DNA of 64,000 nucleotides from Methanomicrobiales archaeon HGW-Methanomicrobiales-1 (GTDB lineage: Archaea > Halobacteriota > Methanomicrobia > Methanomicrobiales > Methanospirillaceae): positions 414,111-478,110 of the forward strand of contig PGYM01000002.1 in NCBI GenBank assembly GCA_002839675.1, written 5' to 3'. Under the pieces are notes generated by a model. That model searched no databases. It had not been told where the DNA came from and was given only the letters and a program-made list of their open reading frames with translations. Shown piece by piece: positions 31,897 through 41,857 of this stretch. How positions within the stretch are numbered: the stretch's first letter is position 1; each line of letters opens with the position of its first letter. Both the position numbers and the translations under genes were made by a program.

Positions 31897-32195
31897 CGTT
31901 CTGCACCCCCGGATCTGATTTTGTCCGATAAAAGTATTGAGTAATTGAATATATTTGGGTGAATCGATCCGTCCCGCAGGCAGGAACCCTGCCGGTTTTT
32001 TGAGATACAGGCCACTGGACTTTGATTGAAAAAAAATTTACCAGATCCTGAACGAAAAAATTTCGCCGCGATCATAATTGTTTTTGAAAAATTTCCGGAT
32101 CAATCGATCCACTCTGCAGCACAATCGAGCGTGACCCCCTCTCTCCCCCAGTGGGGGAGGCGGCCCAAGAGGAGCACCACGTTGTCGCGTATCAT
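31897..32195. other. Intergenic region with dispersed repeat X (copy 1)
   Basis: No gene in about 300 bp. At its left edge is an archaeal TATA-like aaatatatt (near 31948-31956) for the NHL gene. The right part holds repeat X copy 1 (about 32068-32180): a TTTCCGGATCAAT segment followed by a C/G-rich hairpin (CTCCCCC/GGGGGAG, 32142-32158) and GGCCCAAG. Related copies lie at 34.3 and 40.9 kb. Confidence 0.6.
32068..32180 (+). repeat. Dispersed repeat X, copy 1
   Basis: Shares with copies 2 and 3 the order GAAAAA-TTTCCGGATCAAT, GCGTGACCCCCTCTCT, a G/C hairpin and GGCCCAAG. Diverges after 32180. Confidence 0.6.
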
Positions 32196-33869: not shown

Positions 33870-34249
33870 TGAGGGGATCAGCTCCGCTTCCTCAGGAAGT
33901 GCGACTGCCAGGAAGGTTCTGAGTTATTGTGTAATATCCTGCGGAATCACTTATTCTTTTGGGGCGGGAAGACTGGTTCTGAGGGGCTGTCAAACCGGAT
34001 CGCTTTGCATCCGCCCAATCGTCCGGCAATTCCATCCGCGGTGAGCAGGGCCGGGTTCTGCCGGTCGATATTGGTCTCGCTGAAATTTTTTTTACCGCAC
34101 TGGTCTCCGCCGGCAAAATTTTTCCGGGAAAAATGTTTTTTTTAATTTTCAGCAGGCTTTGATTTTATTTTTTACCGGATCGCGTTTGAAAAAATCCGGG
34201 CGGGCTTTGAAAGAAAAATTTTAACCGGACCTTACAAGAAAAAATTTGC

Positions 34250-34380
34250 CGCAATCATGATTGTGTTTGAAAAAAATTTCCGGATCAATCCGCTCTGATA
34301 ACGTAGCGAGCGTGACCCCCTCTCTCCCCCAGAGGGGGAGGCAGCCCAAGGGTAGCAACCCCTAGACCCCCATTTTGGAG
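34250..34380 (+). repeat. Dispersed repeat X, copy 2
   Basis: The fullest copy: TTTCCGGATCAATC at 34277-34290, CGTGACCCCCTCTCTCCCCC from 34311, a CTCCCCC-AGA-GGGGGAG hairpin, then GCAGCCCAAGGGTAGCAACC and further C-rich sequence. Confidence 0.6.
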
Positions 34381-34430
34381 GTTCTCATCTGACCAAATCC
34401 ACTTGGACTCCCGGGGGTTACCCGATCCCG

Positions 34431-34698
34431 GGATGATCTATTCCGGGCCCGTTACGGGCTCCGTTTGCCCATTTCCGGATCCACTTTTCACAATAAAGTG
34501 CTCCAAGTGTCCACCACCCGGAAAAACTCTGTTTTAACCGATTATTTCTCAAAAATAACTGATTTGCAAGCGATTTCCCCGTGCTCTTTAGCGGGCTCCG
34601 GTTGATCGCATTTTCTGCCACCCCATTTCAGGTCATGGGGGGCGAAAAAGGCGATGGAAAGGGGCACTGTTGGCTGATAATGCGGTCACGTCGGAGGG
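34431..34698 (+). repeat. Repeat R, copy 1 (268 bp)
   Basis: Closely related to copy 2 at 36867 (roughly 88% identical by eye, nearly ungapped) and more distantly to copy 3 at 37190, all in the same orientation. Hairpins: GCCCG-TTA-CGGGC, CACTTT/AAAGTG, TTATTT/AAATAA and CCCCAT/ATGGGG. Confidence 0.7.
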
Positions 34699-34988
34699 AT
34701 GTAAGGTGAAGGGAATTTAAGCCACTAACGTTTACTCAGGATCTCTGAAAATCGTTCAATACGAGAGTCCCCGGCCTCAGGTTCCTGTTCAACGTAAGGT
34801 GAACCTTTTTCTGTGTCTCCTCGAAGTATTTCATAGATACGATCGTCTGGTTGTAACAGAGAGTAAGCACACCGGACTCGTGCCGCGATGTGCCGGAACT
34901 GTACCGGAACGATCTCAAATATTCTGCCACCGTTTGCAAAAAAACTAAATTTATCACACACAAGCCAGGGACAGGCTGTTTCTTATTA

Positions 34989-35019
34989 TGCCGCGATGTG
35001 CCGCGATCATGCCGCGATG
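34989..35019. repeat. Three phased TGCCGCGATG iterons
   Basis: TGCCGCGAT(G/C) occurs at 34989, 34999 and 35010, that is at 10- and 11-bp spacing (one helical turn), with a fourth copy at 34881. The group lies about 90 bp beyond the 3' end of the AlbA_2 gene. Such phasing is typical of protein-binding iterons. Confidence 0.55.
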
Positions 35020-35107
35020 GTAATCCAATAGAAAAAGAAAAGAGAATGTCTGATTATTCGGTCAAATCTCAAAGATTCACGATTTTTACCGAGATTCATC
35101 TCAAATA

Positions 35108-36499
35108 CTAAATAGGGAAATAACGGAACGCAGGAAGCAACAGGTACCGGGTAATCTTTCCCTCTTTTCTTGTCTCGACGGCATTCCACTCAACCAATTT
35201 GCTGAGGTCCTGGCGGGCGGTGCGTTCGGCACATCCAGCCATATGAGCCTGTTCAGCGGAAGTGATCGACTCATGGGTCTTCAGGTACTCAATCGCCTGC
35301 TTCTGCCGCTCGTTCAACAGCTGAGGCTGGTCGAGAAGAACATTCACTGAAGAGCGCCGGAATGTCACCATGAAATCCTCATCCTGCTCGCGAAACTCCG
35401 GTTCCGGTACCCCGCGCTCCCGGCAGACGCGGATCATCTTTGTCGTTCCGGAGCCAAATTTTTCAATGTACTTGATCTTGAACAGGATCTCCGCGATGAG
35501 CCGGTTCCTCGGCTTCGAACTGTGTCGCCGTTTCAGCGATTCGATAGTGAGCGTTGAAGGTAACAGCCCGGGGTTCAGGATCTCCAGCGAGTTTGTGAAG
35601 ATGCTGACCTGCACATTCCCCGATGACTGGTAATCCCGGTGGCAGACCGCGTTGATGACCGCTTCGCGGAAGGCATCCGGCGGGTACTCCCAGGACTCTT
35701 CCCGCTCGAATTTTTCCTTCGGAATCCATGCGGCTTTTGCGATATTATCCCGGATGAACTGCTCGGTCTGATCAATCTGGGCAACAATCGCACCCCGGAT
35801 AACTTTCATATTCGAGTATGGCTGAGTAACATCATCACCCCGGAATTTTGCGCAGCGGATCTCTGCCTGATCAACAAATTTCTGCGGATTCCTGCCAAAG
35901 AGAAGGATCGCGGCATTGGTAAGTTTCCCCTCTTTGAGTAGTTCGAGCGATTCCAGAGCGGTCTCTACCGGAGTGTCCGGGTCGAGATCAATATGCCGGA
36001 CCTGCAGGGCCCGGGCCAGGTAGGATTTCACCAGAGCGGGATCGATATCCTGCAAGCTGGCACCCGCACAGATGTCGCGGTCCCAGGAATATCCCTGCTG
36101 CTCCATAATTAGGCGGGTAAGTACATCCGGAGGCATCTTCACGCTCTCGCTACCGCTTCGGATGTATGCAACCCCGTCAACAAAATAGGGTTTGTGAGTA
36201 CCTTCGCTGATGATCACTTCGATGATAGATCTGCCACCATCAGACCGCTCCTTAATTTCCGGTATGATCTCGGGTTTGAGTTTCTGCCGTACTTTCTGGG
36301 AAATTTTCAGGAATGTGGAATCGGCGACGGTGAGCCCGACTACGCGGCCATCGGGTCTCACGCCAAAATAAAGTTTGCCGCCCCGGTGATTCAGTAATGC
36401 GCAGATATCGACAAGAGCAGCATCCAGCTCAGCAAGAGATGCTTTGAGTTCTGTCGTTTCAGATTCCTGGTAGTTCATCGCTGGCAGTCCTGAGTTCAT
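35108..36499 (-). CDS. AlbA_2 (Schlafen-type) domain regulator with C-terminal HTH, COG2865
   Basis: Up to 463 residues. The N-terminal AlbA_2 domain (ESETTELKASL, ICALLNHRGGKLYFGVRPDGRVVG; about residues 12-130) is followed by the RecG-like COG2865 region (FREAVINAVCHRDYQSSGNVQVSIFTNSLEILNPG, about 280-315). A C-terminal winged helix (about 395-445, AGCAERTARQDLSKLVEWNAV) completes it. Proteins of this type are predicted transcriptional regulators or ATP-binding proteins and are frequent in mobile regions. Start could be ATG 36499 or ATG 36478 (MNYQESETTELK), the latter matching the family better. GC-rich codons contrast with the R-M genes to the right. Repeat R copies 1 and 2 lie on either side. 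Confidence 0.82.
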   Translation of the reverse strand: MNSGLPAMNYQESETTELKASLAELDAALVDICALLNHRGGKLYFGVRPDGRVVGLTVADSTFLKISQKVRQKLKPEIIPEIKERSDGGRSIIEVIISEGTHKPYFVDGVAYIRSGSESVKMPPDVLTRLIMEQQGYSWDRDICAGASLQDIDPALVKSYLARALQVRHIDLDPDTPVETALESLELLKEGKLTNAAILLFGRNPQKFVDQAEIRCAKFRGDDVTQPYSNMKVIRGAIVAQIDQTEQFIRDNIAKAAWIPKEKFEREESWEYPPDAFREAVINAVCHRDYQSSGNVQVSIFTNSLEILNPGLLPSTLTIESLKRRHSSKPRNRLIAEILFKIKYIEKFGSGTTKMIRVCRERGVPEPEFREQDEDFMVTFRRSSVNVLLDQPQLLNERQKQAIEYLKTHESITSAEQAHMAGCAERTARQDLSKLVEWNAVETRKEGKITRYLLLPAFRYFPI

Positions 36500-36866
36500 G
36501 GTACTCTACGCATGCGTCCCAGTCCGGTTGTTAGATGCCGCCACATAAAAATAGTATTATGCGTTTTTCCGGTATTGTTGCTCAAAATAAAAAACAGATT
36601 TGCTTTTGCTGAAATCGCATGAATACTTTTAACCTGATCTCCCGGATTGTGGTATTTTCCCCTCCCAAAAACCGGGTTAACTCCGATCGAAAAAACCCCC
36701 ATTCCGGGCATTTTGCGGGCTTTTATTTTTATAACTCGCCAAAATGGGCTCCGATTGGGTGAAAATGAGACCCTGTTTGATCGAAAACTCCTGGAGGAAT
36801 TGCATAAACAGGGGGTCCGGTTAAGGTCGGACAAAACCGGACACCGGGCGATCCTGAGGGTCCGGA

Positions 36867-37132
36867 GATGATCTATTCCGGGCCCTTTACGGGCTCCGTT
36901 TGCCCATTTCCGGATCCGTTTTTCACAATAACGTGCTCCAAATGTCCACCGCACAAAAAAATTCTGTTTTAACCGGTTATTTCTCAAAAATAACGGGTTT
37001 GCAAGCGATTTGCCCCTGCTCTTTAGCGAGCGCCGGTTGATCGCGTTTTCTGCCACCCCATTTCAGGTCATGGGGGGCGAAAAAGGCGATGGAAAGGGGC
37101 ACTGTTGCATGATTATGCGATCACGTCGGAGA
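36867..37132 (+). repeat. Repeat R, copy 2 (266 bp)
   Basis: Nearly colinear with copy 1. Hairpin 2 is changed on both sides (CGTT/AACG instead of CACTTT/AAAGTG). Hairpin 3 is GTTATTT/AAATAAC. Confidence 0.7.
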
Positions 37133-37189
37133 ATATGAGATGAAAAGATGAATATTCAGGTTTTTTGGTAGCGATTGTCCTAGCCCGGA

Positions 37190-37455
37190 GATGATCTATT
37201 CCGGGCCCTTTACAGGCTCCGTTTGCCACTTTTTGGATCCGTTTTTCCGGTTCCAGTGGAAACGGTGCCAACGCCCACAAAAAATATCAGTTTAATCGAT
37301 TATTTTTCGAAAATACGCGTTTAAAACAGAATTATACCGTGCAATTTAGCGGGCTTTGGTTGGTCGTGTTTTTTGTCATTTCATTGCAGGTAATTTGGGG
37401 GGAGAGAGGCGATGGAAATGGGCACTGTTGGCTGATGATGCGATCACGTCGGAGG
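37190..37455 (+). repeat. Repeat R, copy 3 (266 bp, diverged)
   Basis: Same start (GATGATCTATTCCGGGCCC), same end (GCGATCACGTCGGAGG) and same length as the others, but internally diverged. Hairpin 2 is CCGTTT/AAACGG and hairpin 3 TATTTT/AAAATA. Hairpin 4 is lost. Confidence 0.65.
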
Positions 37456-37597
37456 ATTTGGGGGGAGGAACTATTTGTATTTAATATGTGGCTACATTGT
37501 ATTGAATTTTTTGGGCATATATGGTCTCACTTTGTAATTACTAAATGATTTAAAAAGATGCCAATGTATTTATGTTGTAGATACATATTGAAAATTA

Positions 37598-37765
37598 ATG
37601 AATCATTTAATGAAAGCCGAAGTTTCTGGCTATGAAATAATAGAGAAGATGGTCAGACCGTCTGGAAACTCTGGTAGGGTTTATGTTCCAGCTAATTGGA
37701 TTGGAAAAAAAGTCAAAATAGTATTGCTTGACCCAGTGGAGGGTAAAAATGACCGGCTCCAGTAG
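37598..37765 (+). CDS. DUF2080-type transposon-associated small protein
   Basis: 55 residues, too short for most gene finders but clearly coding. The core GYEIIEKMVRPSGNSGRVYV then PANWIGKKVKIVLLDP matches the DUF2080 family of archaeal transposon-encoded proteins (AbrB-like fold predicted). Family members usually sit beside a transposase, and none is present here, suggesting a decayed or moved element. It ends 21 bp before the DNA methyltransferase and is probably cotranscribed, so it could also regulate the R-M locus. Confidence 0.78.
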   Translation: MNHLMKAEVSGYEIIEKMVRPSGNSGRVYVPANWIGKKVKIVLLDPVEGKNDRLQ

Positions 37766-37786
37766 AAACTATAGGGGGTGTGGGTT

Positions 37787-39046
37787 ATGCCAGAAAGTTT
37801 AACCGAATCCGTTCAATATACACCGGAATCAAAAATGGGAATACCGAACGATATCGAAAACGATAGGGATTTTTTAAAACCCGAATACAAAAAATTGGTT
37901 GTAAAAATGGAAACACCATTGAACCCGGCAGAAAAAATAATATTAAATAAAATCCAGAAAAAATTTTCGAAAAATGGCTTTCAGATGGATATAAAAGAAT
38001 TTGAAATTATTTTATACCTTCATTCGATTGATCTTGAAGCCTTTAAAACATATATTCACGGTTTGCTAAGCATTACAACATCCGAATCTATCGATAAAAC
38101 TGTGTTCCTACATATTATCGAGAAAATTTCAAGGATAAGAAGTTACGGGATCAAGGGCGGAAAGAGATTTTATGTAACATATAACGATGAAAGAAAAGTT
38201 GAAAATCGGCAATCCAAAGTAAATAATAGAGGACTATATTATTACGCTCAAAATAACAACTTCTCGAAAGTAAATACATCTCTCCCAGAAAAATATGAAA
38301 ATCAAATAATATGTAATGACAGCGGATTTGTTTTGAAGCAGTTGCCCGATAATTGCGTTGATATGATTATCACATCTCCACCTTACAATTTCGGATTGGA
38401 GTATGGTAGTACTTCAAAAGACGGAGTAGACTGGGAAAAATACTTCCAACAATTATTTGAGATTTTTGACGAATGTATCCGCGTTCTAAAATATGGCGGA
38501 AGAATAATCGTTAATATTCAGCCATTATTTTCAGATTATATCCCAAGCCATCACATCATTTCAAATCATTTCATGGAACAGAAAATGATCTGGAAGGGCG
38601 AAATCCTCTGGGAAAAAAATAACTACAACTGTAAATATTGTGCGTGGGGAAGCTGGAAAAGTCCGAGTAGCCCTTATCTAAAATATACCTGGGAGTTTTT
38701 GGAGATCTTTGCAAAAGGAGATTTGAAGAAAGAGGGATTAGCTGAAAATATCGATATCAATGAAGACGAATTTAAAAAATGGGTTGTCGCAAAGTGGTCA
38801 ATTGCCCCGGAAAGAAAAATGGTTCAATATGATCATCCTGCAATGTTCCCAGAAGACCTGGTAGAAAGGGCCCTGAAACTGTTTAGTTTCGAAGGTGATG
38901 TTATTTTAGATCCATTCAACGGGGTTGGTACAACTTGTGTTGTTGCAAAAAGGTTCAATAGAAAATATATCGGGATTGATGTATCCCAAAAATATTGTAG
39001 CGTTGCTAAAAAAAGATTGAAGGAAATTTTACCCGGAACCAGTTAA
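37787..39046 (+). CDS. Type II DNA methyltransferase (beta class, N4-cytosine or N6-adenine)
   Basis: 419 residues. Catalytic motif IV TSPPYN (about 196-201) precedes the AdoMet-binding motif I LDPFNGVGTTCVVAKRF (about 374-390). This order defines beta-class amino-methyltransferases, and SPPY is most common in N4-cytosine or N6-adenine enzymes. The N-terminal 180 residues are probably the target-recognition part. GGGGGTG lies 6 bases before ATG 37787. AT-rich codon use. It is convergent with, and overlaps by 4 bases, the restriction endonuclease gene, so the pair forms one R-M system that protects host DNA from self-cleavage. Confidence 0.88.
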   Translation: MPESLTESVQYTPESKMGIPNDIENDRDFLKPEYKKLVVKMETPLNPAEKIILNKIQKKFSKNGFQMDIKEFEIILYLHSIDLEAFKTYIHGLLSITTSESIDKTVFLHIIEKISRIRSYGIKGGKRFYVTYNDERKVENRQSKVNNRGLYYYAQNNNFSKVNTSLPEKYENQIICNDSGFVLKQLPDNCVDMIITSPPYNFGLEYGSTSKDGVDWEKYFQQLFEIFDECIRVLKYGGRIIVNIQPLFSDYIPSHHIISNHFMEQKMIWKGEILWEKNNYNCKYCAWGSWKSPSSPYLKYTWEFLEIFAKGDLKKEGLAENIDINEDEFKKWVVAKWSIAPERKMVQYDHPAMFPEDLVERALKLFSFEGDVILDPFNGVGTTCVVAKRFNRKYIGIDVSQKYCSVAKKRLKEILPGTS

Positions 39047-39831
39047 TCGGGTAAAATTCCACCAATTTTTATCCTTGTAACATCACGGGATATTTTTTCT
39101 AATGCGGTTTTTATCTCACTAAAAAATTCAAAAACCGCATCGTTTTCAATAGGATTTGTTGGGATTCCACGAATAATGAAAATTTGATCTAAAGGTGTTC
39201 TTCCTTTTGTTGGAATTTCGTTGACATCAATTTCATTTCTCTCAGAGACACAATAGACTTTAACATTTGGAGAACCCTGTTTCATTTTTTGGGCTGTAAA
39301 TTGTGCTTCGCTTAACATCGTTTTGTCGATATAAGTTTTACATTCAATTGCAATAACAGGGATAATGATGTGGTGTTGATCTACACCAATATTAACATCG
39401 AATTTTTTGCCAATGCAAAAATCAATATCCTTTGTTTTGATTTTGGCATTTCCTTCCCGATCTAATACAATTCCTGCAAAAACACCTTTATTAAAAAAAT
39501 CAAGATTTAATCTTCTAATTTCCGGAATATCTTTAAGGAGATGCCCACAAAATTCTTCCAAAACGGTCGGTCGAAATTTTGCTTGAGAGGTTATTCGATG
39601 CATTGATACGAAGGCATCAACATGAGGGTAATAATTATTTAAAATGGATACTTTCCTATCAATATCCCTCTTGGTTATCCCAGTTATTGCTACCTGTGAT
39701 TCTTTGTAAGGGGTGTAGTAATCACGTTTAAATTCGACACATTGTTGAAATATTCGTCTGTAGGTATTTCCTTTAAGATCGCGACATTTTCCATCAATGT
39801 TACTTTCGTGATAAAAATAATTACCTACCAT
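39043..39831 (-). CDS. Type II restriction endonuclease, Bpu10I-like PD-(D/E)xK family
   Basis: 262 residues. The catalytic core is readable: an Asp in KDIDFCIG (about 135-137), then IPVIAIECKTYIDK with Glu163-Cys-Lys165, giving D-x(about 25)-E-x-K. The arrangement and the MLSEAQFTAQKMKQ helix that follows resemble the Bpu10I family, whose founder cuts an asymmetric 7-bp site; specificity here is unknown. Tail-to-tail with the methyltransferase, stops overlapping. Confidence that it is the cognate nuclease is high from position, moderate for the exact family. Confidence 0.78.
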   Translation of the reverse strand: MVGNYFYHESNIDGKCRDLKGNTYRRIFQQCVEFKRDYYTPYKESQVAITGITKRDIDRKVSILNNYYPHVDAFVSMHRITSQAKFRPTVLEEFCGHLLKDIPEIRRLNLDFFNKGVFAGIVLDREGNAKIKTKDIDFCIGKKFDVNIGVDQHHIIIPVIAIECKTYIDKTMLSEAQFTAQKMKQGSPNVKVYCVSERNEIDVNEIPTKGRTPLDQIFIIRGIPTNPIENDAVFEFFSEIKTALEKISRDVTRIKIGGILPD

Positions 39832-39849
39832 ATATTTTAGAATCTTTTT

Positions 39850-40200
39850 TTATCCATATCTTCTTTGCGAAATTTCAAAATCAATCGAAATTTCTTTTTG
39901 TAAATCGATCCAAAGCCGATCTTCTTTTTTTGCATTTGCTATAGCCTCAAATATTACATTTGTGACTTGCATGGCTCTATCATAAAAACAGCTATGCCAA
40001 GAAATATTATCAGAATCATAATCTGGATTCGGATTAACTCCTACCTCCAAACAAATTTGTAATATTCTAGCATTGCTCGGTCGAACAATAAATTCTATCC
40101 AATCATCTTTTCCGGTAGCATCCATCTGCTGAAAAGATATTGAGAAAACATTGTCAAGATTAATCCAATCATCATCTTGGCAATTTTTTATCCAAACCAT
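39850..40200 (-). CDS. Small acidic protein, unknown, R-M neighbour
   Basis: 116 residues, acidic, Trp-rich at the start (MVWIKNCQDDDWINL) with mixed alpha/beta pattern and no membrane segment. AT-rich. It lies 18 bp upstream of the restriction endonuclease on the same strand, so the two are likely cotranscribed. It might be a controller or accessory factor, but I see no HTH motif. Confidence 0.6.
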   Translation of the reverse strand: MVWIKNCQDDDWINLDNVFSISFQQMDATGKDDWIEFIVRPSNARILQICLEVGVNPNPDYDSDNISWHSCFYDRAMQVTNVIFEAIANAKKEDRLWIDLQKEISIDFEISQRRYG

Positions 40201-40431
40201 AATAGAAAACTAAAATCTACGATTCTATAACATTCTATCTGTTTATCATTAATTATGCAAATTTTATTTCATTTTATAAGATAATCGCTGCGCGCCCCTT
40301 ATTTGTAATAATCCTAGAAAGATAATTTACAAAAAGAAGCCCAAATTGAGAGTTTTGAAAAAAGGGGTGCGAAATCCCTATAAATGAGTGCCAGCTGACC
40401 TGAGACTAAGCGAGTCCAGAGATTTCGCTTG

Positions 40432-40683
40432 ATGGTAAAAATGAAAAAGCAAAAGTCAGATGGAAATGAAATTTGTGAAAAATGTAAAATAAAAATGAAA
40501 GTTATTGAATGTTCTCGACGTTTATTAGATCCGGATGAATTGGGTGGAAACCTTTCGGATGGAGAAAAATCAGAATACATAGCTGCCGAATGTGGTGGGG
40601 ATGATACAGGGGAATTCTCAATAAATCAAATTACATACGAATGCCCAAAATGTCACCAAATAAAATGTGTTGAACACTTGTAA
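40432..40683 (+). CDS. Small zinc-ribbon-like protein
   Basis: 83 residues. Two CxxC knuckles (CEKC near 15-18; CPKC near 72-75) and further Cys residues suggest a zinc-binding fold. A polar loop separates them. Starts at ATG 40432 or 40441. AT-rich and isolated between the R-M locus and the TIR locus. Function unknown; comparable proteins in islands are often nucleic-acid-binding. Confidence 0.6.
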   Translation: MVKMKKQKSDGNEICEKCKIKMKVIECSRRLLDPDELGGNLSDGEKSEYIAAECGGDDTGEFSINQITYECPKCHQIKCVEHL

Positions 40684-40796
40684 AAAAAACAAATAATCAT
40701 TTTTATTCTCGACAGAATTTTTCCGTTAAAACCTGTTTACTTGAATTATTATTAATTGATTTTTTTTAAATAGCGATAAATTGTGTTAAAAAAATT

Positions 40797-40838
40797 TTAT
40801 CGATATTCCGGCGGCAGCTTCGGTAACCCGCCCTTGAA
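40797..40838 (-). pseudogene. Displaced 3'-terminal fragment of cdc48
   Basis: On the minus strand it reads FKGGLPKLPPEYR then stop, nearly the same as the true cdc48 end [15 protein letters not shown] then stop (two codons shorter). Similarity continues past the stop (aattgtgt followed by an A run) in both places. There is no similarity upstream of the Phe codon. Interpreted as a relic of an insertion at the cdc48 3' end or of an older duplication. Confidence 0.65.
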
Positions 40839-40884
40839 ACAATTTCTTGAACCATTTGCAAAAAATATGTCGAAACAATGCTCG

Positions 40885-41005
40885 TGATTGAAAAAATTAT
40901 CCGGAACAATAGATTCTCTCAGCGGCAATTAGGTGAGAGTCACCCCCTCTCTCCCCTTGAGAGGGGCATCCCAAGGGGGGCACCCCCTTTGATCCCCGTT
41001 TCGCG
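40885..41005 (+). repeat. Dispersed repeat X, copy 3
   Basis: GAAAAAATTATCCGGAACAAT, then CACCCCCTCTCTCCCCTTGAGAGGGG: the hairpin is kept (CCCCTCTC/GAGAGGGG), though the paired bases differ from copies 1 and 2. CCCAAGGGGGGCACCCCC follows. Confidence 0.55.
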
Positions 41006-41161
41006 GATAAGACTCGTCAACCTAGCAATGGGCTACGTGGGGGAATATAGAATTTTGCAAGAGACTCGATTAACTGATTGAGGAACTTTAACATGTAACC
41101 TAATAGACAAGAAATTCAATTAGAAATATATTTTGTATTTGAAAGTGATTATTATCATCAG

Positions 41162-41857
41162 ATGAATCTTGATGCACCTCTGTATGATCTTCAACGAATC
41201 AAGATTTTTTTAAGTTATTCCACAAAAGACAAACATACAGCGGGGACAATAAAATATCAATTAGTAAAACTCGGATATGATGTTTTTTTAGCTCACCATG
41301 ATCTCGAACCTAGTCAGGTTTGGGTTGAAGAGATTTTACGAAATCTTGATAATTGTGATATTTTTCTTCCTTTTTTAACTGAAAATTGTTTTAATTCTTT
41401 TTGGGTAAATCAAGAAATCGGCATTGGATTCATAAAAAATAAATTGATAATGCCATTTACAATTAATCGTATTCCTTGGGGATTCATCTCTCACATACAA
41501 GCATATTGTCTTGATGCTTCAAGTGCCACAAATTTGTATAATGACATTCAAAATGCATGTTCTAAAATTGAAAAAATAATGACTAGTAAAGACCCAGAAA
41601 AAATGAGAGATACATTAATTTTTGCTTTAGACAAAAGTGGTTCATATGAAACTTCGAATAAAATCGCAATTTCTCTCATGAAATGTGGGTTAATCTCTGC
41701 TGATCAGGTTAATGAAATTATTAGAATTTTTTTAAAGAATGATCAAGTAAATCAAGCATATGAAGGACGAAATTTAATTTTAGACTTATTCACCAATTAT
41801 TACGATGCAATTGATTCTGAATTTGAAGAGATTTTAAGAGACAATTGGGATTTTTAA
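41162..41857 (+). CDS. TIR-domain protein (probable NAD-cleaving defence effector)
   Basis: 231 residues. The TIR domain covers about residues 12-140: IKIFLSYSTKDKHTAGTI (box 1), then GYDVFLAHHDLEPSQVW. The candidate catalytic Glu85 is in FWVNQEIGIGF, at the position used by NADase-active bacterial and archaeal TIRs. The C-terminal 90 residues are a helical domain (EKMRDTLIFALDKSGSYETSN...) that I do not recognise; it may sense the trigger. Strongly AT-rich. Followed after 146 bp by a membrane-protein gene, and located between a displaced cdc48 tail and cdc48. NAD depletion on infection is the family-based inference. Confidence 0.82.
   Translation: MNLDAPLYDLQRIKIFLSYSTKDKHTAGTIKYQLVKLGYDVFLAHHDLEPSQVWVEEILRNLDNCDIFLPFLTENCFNSFWVNQEIGIGFIKNKLIMPFTINRIPWGFISHIQAYCLDASSATNLYNDIQNACSKIEKIMTSKDPEKMRDTLIFALDKSGSYETSNKIAISLMKCGLISADQVNEIIRIFLKNDQVNQAYEGRNLILDLFTNYYDAIDSEFEEILRDNWDF

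Follow-up and report, generated by a model that had tools for sequence, protein, structure and literature searches.

The three direct repeats described here belong to a real family of interspersed, non-coding repeats of Methanoregula, which is old, scattered between genes and apparently hitherto undescribed, since a literature search found no description of it. The structure conserved among its copies appears to lie at the level of the DNA, in A/T tracts phased with the helical turn and in the curvature that a model predicts for them. On the basis of this calculated curvature, we give about even chances to the reading that the element is a DNA-architecture or target site, that is, an interspersed repeat whose core, predicted to be intrinsically curved, would be wrapped by a protein.

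Comparison of the sequences within the window (the whole stretch of 64,000 nucleotides that was analysed) gave three direct repeats of 266-268 bp, all on the plus strand and with common ends; the earlier note had described them with this length and orientation, and its positions are right within 1-2 nt. The unit that they share is called module M:

34431..34698, plus strand: copy 1, M module (268 bp), the reference copy; HMM score 246
36865..37132, plus strand: copy 2, M module, 92% identity to copy 1; HMM score 251
37188..37455, plus strand: copy 3, M module, 75% identity to copy 1; HMM score 238

Identities are those of BLAST, in which copy 1 retrieved copy 2 from its own genome with E = 5e-106 and copy 3 with E = 2e-42, far beyond chance. 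The borders of the unit are sharp, as identity among the window copies falls off on both sides, and copies 2 and 3 form a tandem pair, the latter starting about 55 bp past the former. Copy 3 has outer parts as in copies 1 and 2 and a centre as in the copies of two other genomes (L034 and L036); in the alignment this centre is a second subtype common to the three, which the tree also groups together. Judged from these sequences, this suggests that the core of copy 3 was exchanged for that of another subtype.

The search of the copies against related genomes, recommended in the earlier note, revealed a dispersed family. Nucleotide matches were found in 28 of 100 related genomes, the own genome included, and a profile derived from the sequences alone of 23 full copies had matches in 37 of the 39 Methanoregula genomes (0-34 copies per genome), weaker matches beyond the genus within its family, and hardly any in the other families of the order. 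Several divergent subtypes coexist in many genomes. An origin from plasmids or phages was discarded, because no match to the element was found among them; one viral contig has the 3' end box described below, but without the element.

M begins with a GC-rich 5' hairpin, followed by a central A/T-rich core, by TGCAATTTAGCGG and by a 3' end box, TCACGTCGGAGA, which is among the best conserved parts of M in the alignment of 44 full copies. Similarity extends beyond M by about 230 bp upstream and about 165 bp downstream in roughly two out of three full copies. Profiles of the upstream module (U), of M and of the downstream module (D) show that the order U-M-D is fixed and that neighbouring modules are mostly separated by a few bases, for about 690 bp altogether; among the full copies examined, about two thirds have U ahead of M. 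Within the window U occurs only at copy 2, copies 1 and 3 consisting of M alone. U contains an inverted repeat, whose arms GACCCCCTGTTC/GAACAGGGGGTC recur in orthologous loci. The parts located in the window are the following:

34445..34461, plus strand: 5' hairpin of copy 1, GGGCCC/GGGCTC; paired in 92% of the cells of the 44-copy alignment
36880..36896, plus strand: 5' hairpin of copy 2 (sequence and hairpin count)
37203..37219, plus strand: 5' hairpin of copy 3, GGGCCC/AGGCTC (sequence and hairpin count)
34686..34696, plus strand: 3' end box TCACGTCGGAG of copy 1, near-invariant in the 44 copies
37121..37131, plus strand: 3' end box TCACGTCGGAG of copy 2 (44-copy alignment; genome-wide pattern matches)
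37444..37454, plus strand: 3' end box TCACGTCGGAG of copy 3 (44-copy alignment)
36630..36856, plus strand: upstream module U, directly before copy 2; U profile score 222
36770..36816, plus strand: inverted repeat within U, ACCCTGTTT ... AAACAGGGGGT (sequence)

Tandem M copies, with a spacing of 310-370 bp, were found at at least six other loci. The three copies of the earlier note are real, but they are not peculiar to this locus, being part of a genus-wide family, and their 268 bp are one module of a composite. The 3' box is also present in other, apparently shuffled, intergenic repeats of Methanoregula. Five further intergenic mosaics of the genus (L286, L288, L275, L280 and L278) have short direct repeats, then TTTCACGTCGGAGA, and also a motif resembling TTTAGC, arranged in another order. 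A second, different family of intergenic repeats, with CCCCTCTCTCCCC...GGGGGAGG palindromes, occurs in the window at 32126-32176, 34307-34357 and 40932-40982, and is adjoined by a repeat at 32054-32104, 34239-34289 and 40860-40910.

The earlier note had considered an unknown family of structured RNA, based on the observation that a second hairpin seemed to remain paired through compensating changes and that a third was likewise kept. Pairing was counted in the 44 aligned full copies, with shuffles and slid versions of the helices as controls. Hairpin 2 is paired in 36% of cells overall, no better than slid controls, and its three inner pairs in 7-20% of sequences; hairpin 3 is paired in 56% of cells. 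Jointly the two reach 51%, against 42-51% for slid controls, so that this control fails to separate them, although they exceed simple shuffles, a control that ignores relatedness. Neither hairpin can thus be regarded as kept. Wide conservation is limited to two helices, the 5' hairpin with 92% of cells paired and a central dyad with 74%, for neither of which covariation in the 44 copies clearly exceeds that of shuffles; the 5' hairpin pairs mostly through sequence identity, and its short palindrome is enriched genome-wide. The covariation test that had been suggested was carried out in a manner similar to R-scape (APC-corrected G statistics, tree-based substitution null) on the same 44 copies, and no pair with E < 0.05 was found, the best E being 0.68; this is the outcome that the earlier note had named as refuting its proposal. 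RNAalifold gave -3.4 kcal/mol with 5 pairs, an energy near zero, and fold z-scores of the central segment in 68 copies averaged -0.7 and -0.3 on the two strands. As hairpin counts, covariation test, RNAalifold and fold z-scores all fail it, an RNA fold is unsupported. Some properties would suit a gene for a non-coding RNA with a conserved fold, namely the intergenic position, the discrete length, the copies in tandem, a T-rich stretch past the 3' end and fold z-scores below -3 in a few single copies; however, besides the results above, Rfam contains no relevant match to the element and no TATA-like promoter was seen upstream when judged by eye, and we regard such a gene family as very improbable. 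The apparently compensating hairpins may come from A-tracts alternating with T-tracts, which give locally matching arms.

A protein reading is also unsupported, because the minus-strand frame at 34418-34621 has no Pfam match. The earlier proposal that selection acts on RNA or DNA structure rather than on a protein can therefore be retained as far as the element is non-coding and its structure seemingly lies in the DNA, while a structured RNA is unsupported.

The conserved part of M is its central portion of about 80 bp, where six to seven A/T tracts follow each other one helical turn apart, phased at 10.5 bp. Model positions 85-165, mapped onto the window, give the coordinates of this core; the bend was calculated with one wedge model over 63 bp:

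34512..34592, plus strand: core of copy 1, with A/T tracts in helical phase; a bend of about 151 degrees is predicted over 63 bp
36947..37027, plus strand: core of copy 2; predicted bend about 118 degrees
37270..37350, plus strand: core of copy 3, the most divergent sequence; predicted bend about 85 degrees

The power of WW dinucleotides at 10.5 bp has z = 39 in 47 strong copies and z = 30 in 43 diverged ones, compared with -0.3 in the window background. These values are overstated, since the copies share descent and the phasing may be partly inherited through it; for this reason substitutions were examined too. In the tract columns of the core, 62% of the changes from A or T stay A/T (58/93), as compared with 46% (98/214) in the other A/T-rich columns of M (Fisher p = 0.009). 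Over 63 bp, the median predicted bend of the 90 cores is 100 degrees (114 among the strong copies, 80 among the diverged ones), compared with 47 for AT-matched background. The 95th percentile of the AT-matched background is exceeded by 96% of the strong copies and by 44% of the diverged ones, and that of intergenic DNA of like composition by 93% and 44%, respectively. Predicted bending is strongest in the core; it is unremarkable in U, in most of D and in the 5' part of M, and one subtype (L109/L110) has an ordinary value of 20-55 degrees. The element resembles known curved DNA with phased A-tracts (PMC3940949, PMC3431218) in its A/T runs with a period of about 10.5 bp and in its predicted bend; it differs in that the bend sits in a discrete homologous family and not in a diffuse genome-wide periodicity.

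The bend and the end boxes might instead be sites for a transposase, encoded elsewhere or lost, if the element were a degenerate non-autonomous (MITE-like) element, as the earlier note had also suggested. Homologous copies are dispersed over many unrelated loci and neighbour genes, between copies 1 and 2 only M is duplicated and its borders are sharp, tandem copies recur at other loci, and copy 3 is followed at about 140 bp by a gene for DUF2080, a domain annotated as transposon-encoded. On the other hand, neither terminal inverted repeats nor target duplications were seen in the alignments, and no clean empty site was found in the one case of gain or loss compared (G018/G021 at L125), where the region is non-syntenic. 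Orthologous copies are mostly stable between related species, and full copies within one genome are at most about 92% alike in the tree, so that no recent burst of copies has occurred. The search for a partner transposase, made for the Y1 type (PF01797), found none in 34 of the 39 genus genomes. The element is similar to the MITEs of Sulfolobus islandicus (PMC3718332) as a short, dispersed, non-coding archaeal repeat, but terminal inverted repeats, target duplications and a partner insertion sequence were not found for it. We give this origin roughly a quarter of the likelihood and consider it doubtful.

The conservation of the end box could also indicate an integron- or att-like site of recombination or attachment, in which TCACGTCGGAGA would form the core where crossover takes place. 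One ortholog pair loses synteny exactly at the 3' end, where G021 has a gene-bearing insert of 1665 bp and G018 has 209 bp; CGGAGA-like sequences stand at both ends of some copies, and copies of one locus usually have the same orientation. In that pair (L123:507-2172 versus L124:843-1052) the gene inserted exactly at the 3' end of the element in G021 is CBS-domain-like, as judged by eye, and the 209 bp of G018 are a different sequence. However, other orthologous copies of the same genome pair are unbroken and the neighbours are mostly ordinary housekeeping genes. Integron attC arrays consist of same-orientation repeats, some of them in tandem. The element is like them in these respects and in its single synteny break at a 3' end; it is longer, an attC-type core was not seen, and its neighbours are mostly ordinary. 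We therefore hold a site of this kind to be unlikely.

Two further systems were compared on account of short motifs. An archaeal REP/BIME system, mobilised by a Y1 transposase of the RAYT type, would fit the palindrome TCCGGGC-n7-GGGCTCCG, which is commoner than a reversed-pattern control in 10 of 10 genus genomes tested, and the pairs of palindromes spaced by about 41-43 bp in G011. With REP/BIME mosaics (PMC2817692, PMC12306157) the element shares an intergenic, non-coding and modular nature and a GC-rich palindrome repeated genome-wide, whereas it is far longer (268-690 bp versus 20-40 bp), has fewer copies, possesses a curved core and is mostly without RAYT. The Y1 transposase is missing from 34 of the 39 genus genomes, the own one included, which largely refutes such a system and leaves it extremely improbable. 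Dispersed, origin-like binding sites for Orc1/Cdc6 were considered because one subtype has TTCCAGTGGAAA, the dyad of origin recognition boxes. Nevertheless, the boxes at orc1 genes (G000, G011) read TTCCA-n-GAA-n-GGGGT, and the repeats, compared by eye in the element alignment with the boxes upstream of orc1, are without the G-tract at the right spacing; this identity was rejected and hardly any credence is left to it. Likely replication origins with such boxes lie beside orc1 at L263:92-510 and L302:92-280 (own genome and G011). In G021 and G018 the element matches are concentrated around the contig ends, in a stretch that makes up about a quarter of the chromosome (13 of the 15 matches listed in G021); copies near coordinate 0 cannot be read as clustering at the origin, because these contigs do not begin at orc1.

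The surroundings of the copies were also inspected. The window has a restriction- or defence-like neighbourhood at 35108-41857, with the following genes:

35108-36499: SLFN/RecG-like protein
37598-37765: DUF2080, annotated as transposon-encoded, after copy 3
37778-39046: N6/N4 DNA methylase
39043-39831: Bpu10I-type endonuclease
41162-41857: TIR-domain protein

Although this neighbourhood is rich in defence genes, neighbours elsewhere are varied, many of them housekeeping, and the 89 neighbour proteins scanned in all gave few restriction-modification matches, so the element was rejected as a marker of defence islands. Copies lie between convergent genes in 25 cases and between divergent ones in 12, a marginal excess (p = 0.047) with genes called as simple ORFs; as downstream genes are more often convergent, a regulator in the 5'-UTR was set aside.

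Returning to the DNA-architecture or target site, M is a modular DNA element, its 5' palindrome, core of predicted curvature and 3' end box being joined by U and D in some copies, and the core would owe its conservation to a protein that wraps or bends it. New copies would arise via occasional local duplication, gene conversion or transposition. Candidates for the wrapping protein are one of the two histone-fold proteins that the own genome encodes, another nucleoid protein, or a recombinase. MC1 was ruled out, since the own genome has no MC1 gene. Archaeal nucleosomes prefer a 10-bp WW periodicity and exclude pentamers made of A/T only (PMC3691661). The core resembles these positioning sequences in that, over about 60-80 bp, AA/TT/AT/TA recur every 10 bp and alternate with G/C, yet it has runs of 6-7 A/T columns, and by that standard it does not qualify as a histone site (PMC3691661). 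Being full of the A/T-only pentamers that archaeal nucleosomes avoid, the core is not a clean fit to an ordinary histone site, and it is equally possible that another nucleoid protein or a recombinase reads the bend. More speculatively, and with a probability that we judge low, each copy could be a pre-bent landing site that nucleates a complex of histones or nucleoid proteins and marks chromosome domains or the ends of convergent genes.

These results call for caution, as alternating A- and T-tracts can mimic compensating RNA hairpins when just three copies are compared. The family shows a helical phasing of A/T kept while the letters change, and proposed RNA hairpins without covariation. If the bend is real, a genome offers up to about 30 natural copies on which one could test directly whether archaea place chromatin proteins or recombination events by means of pre-bent DNA.
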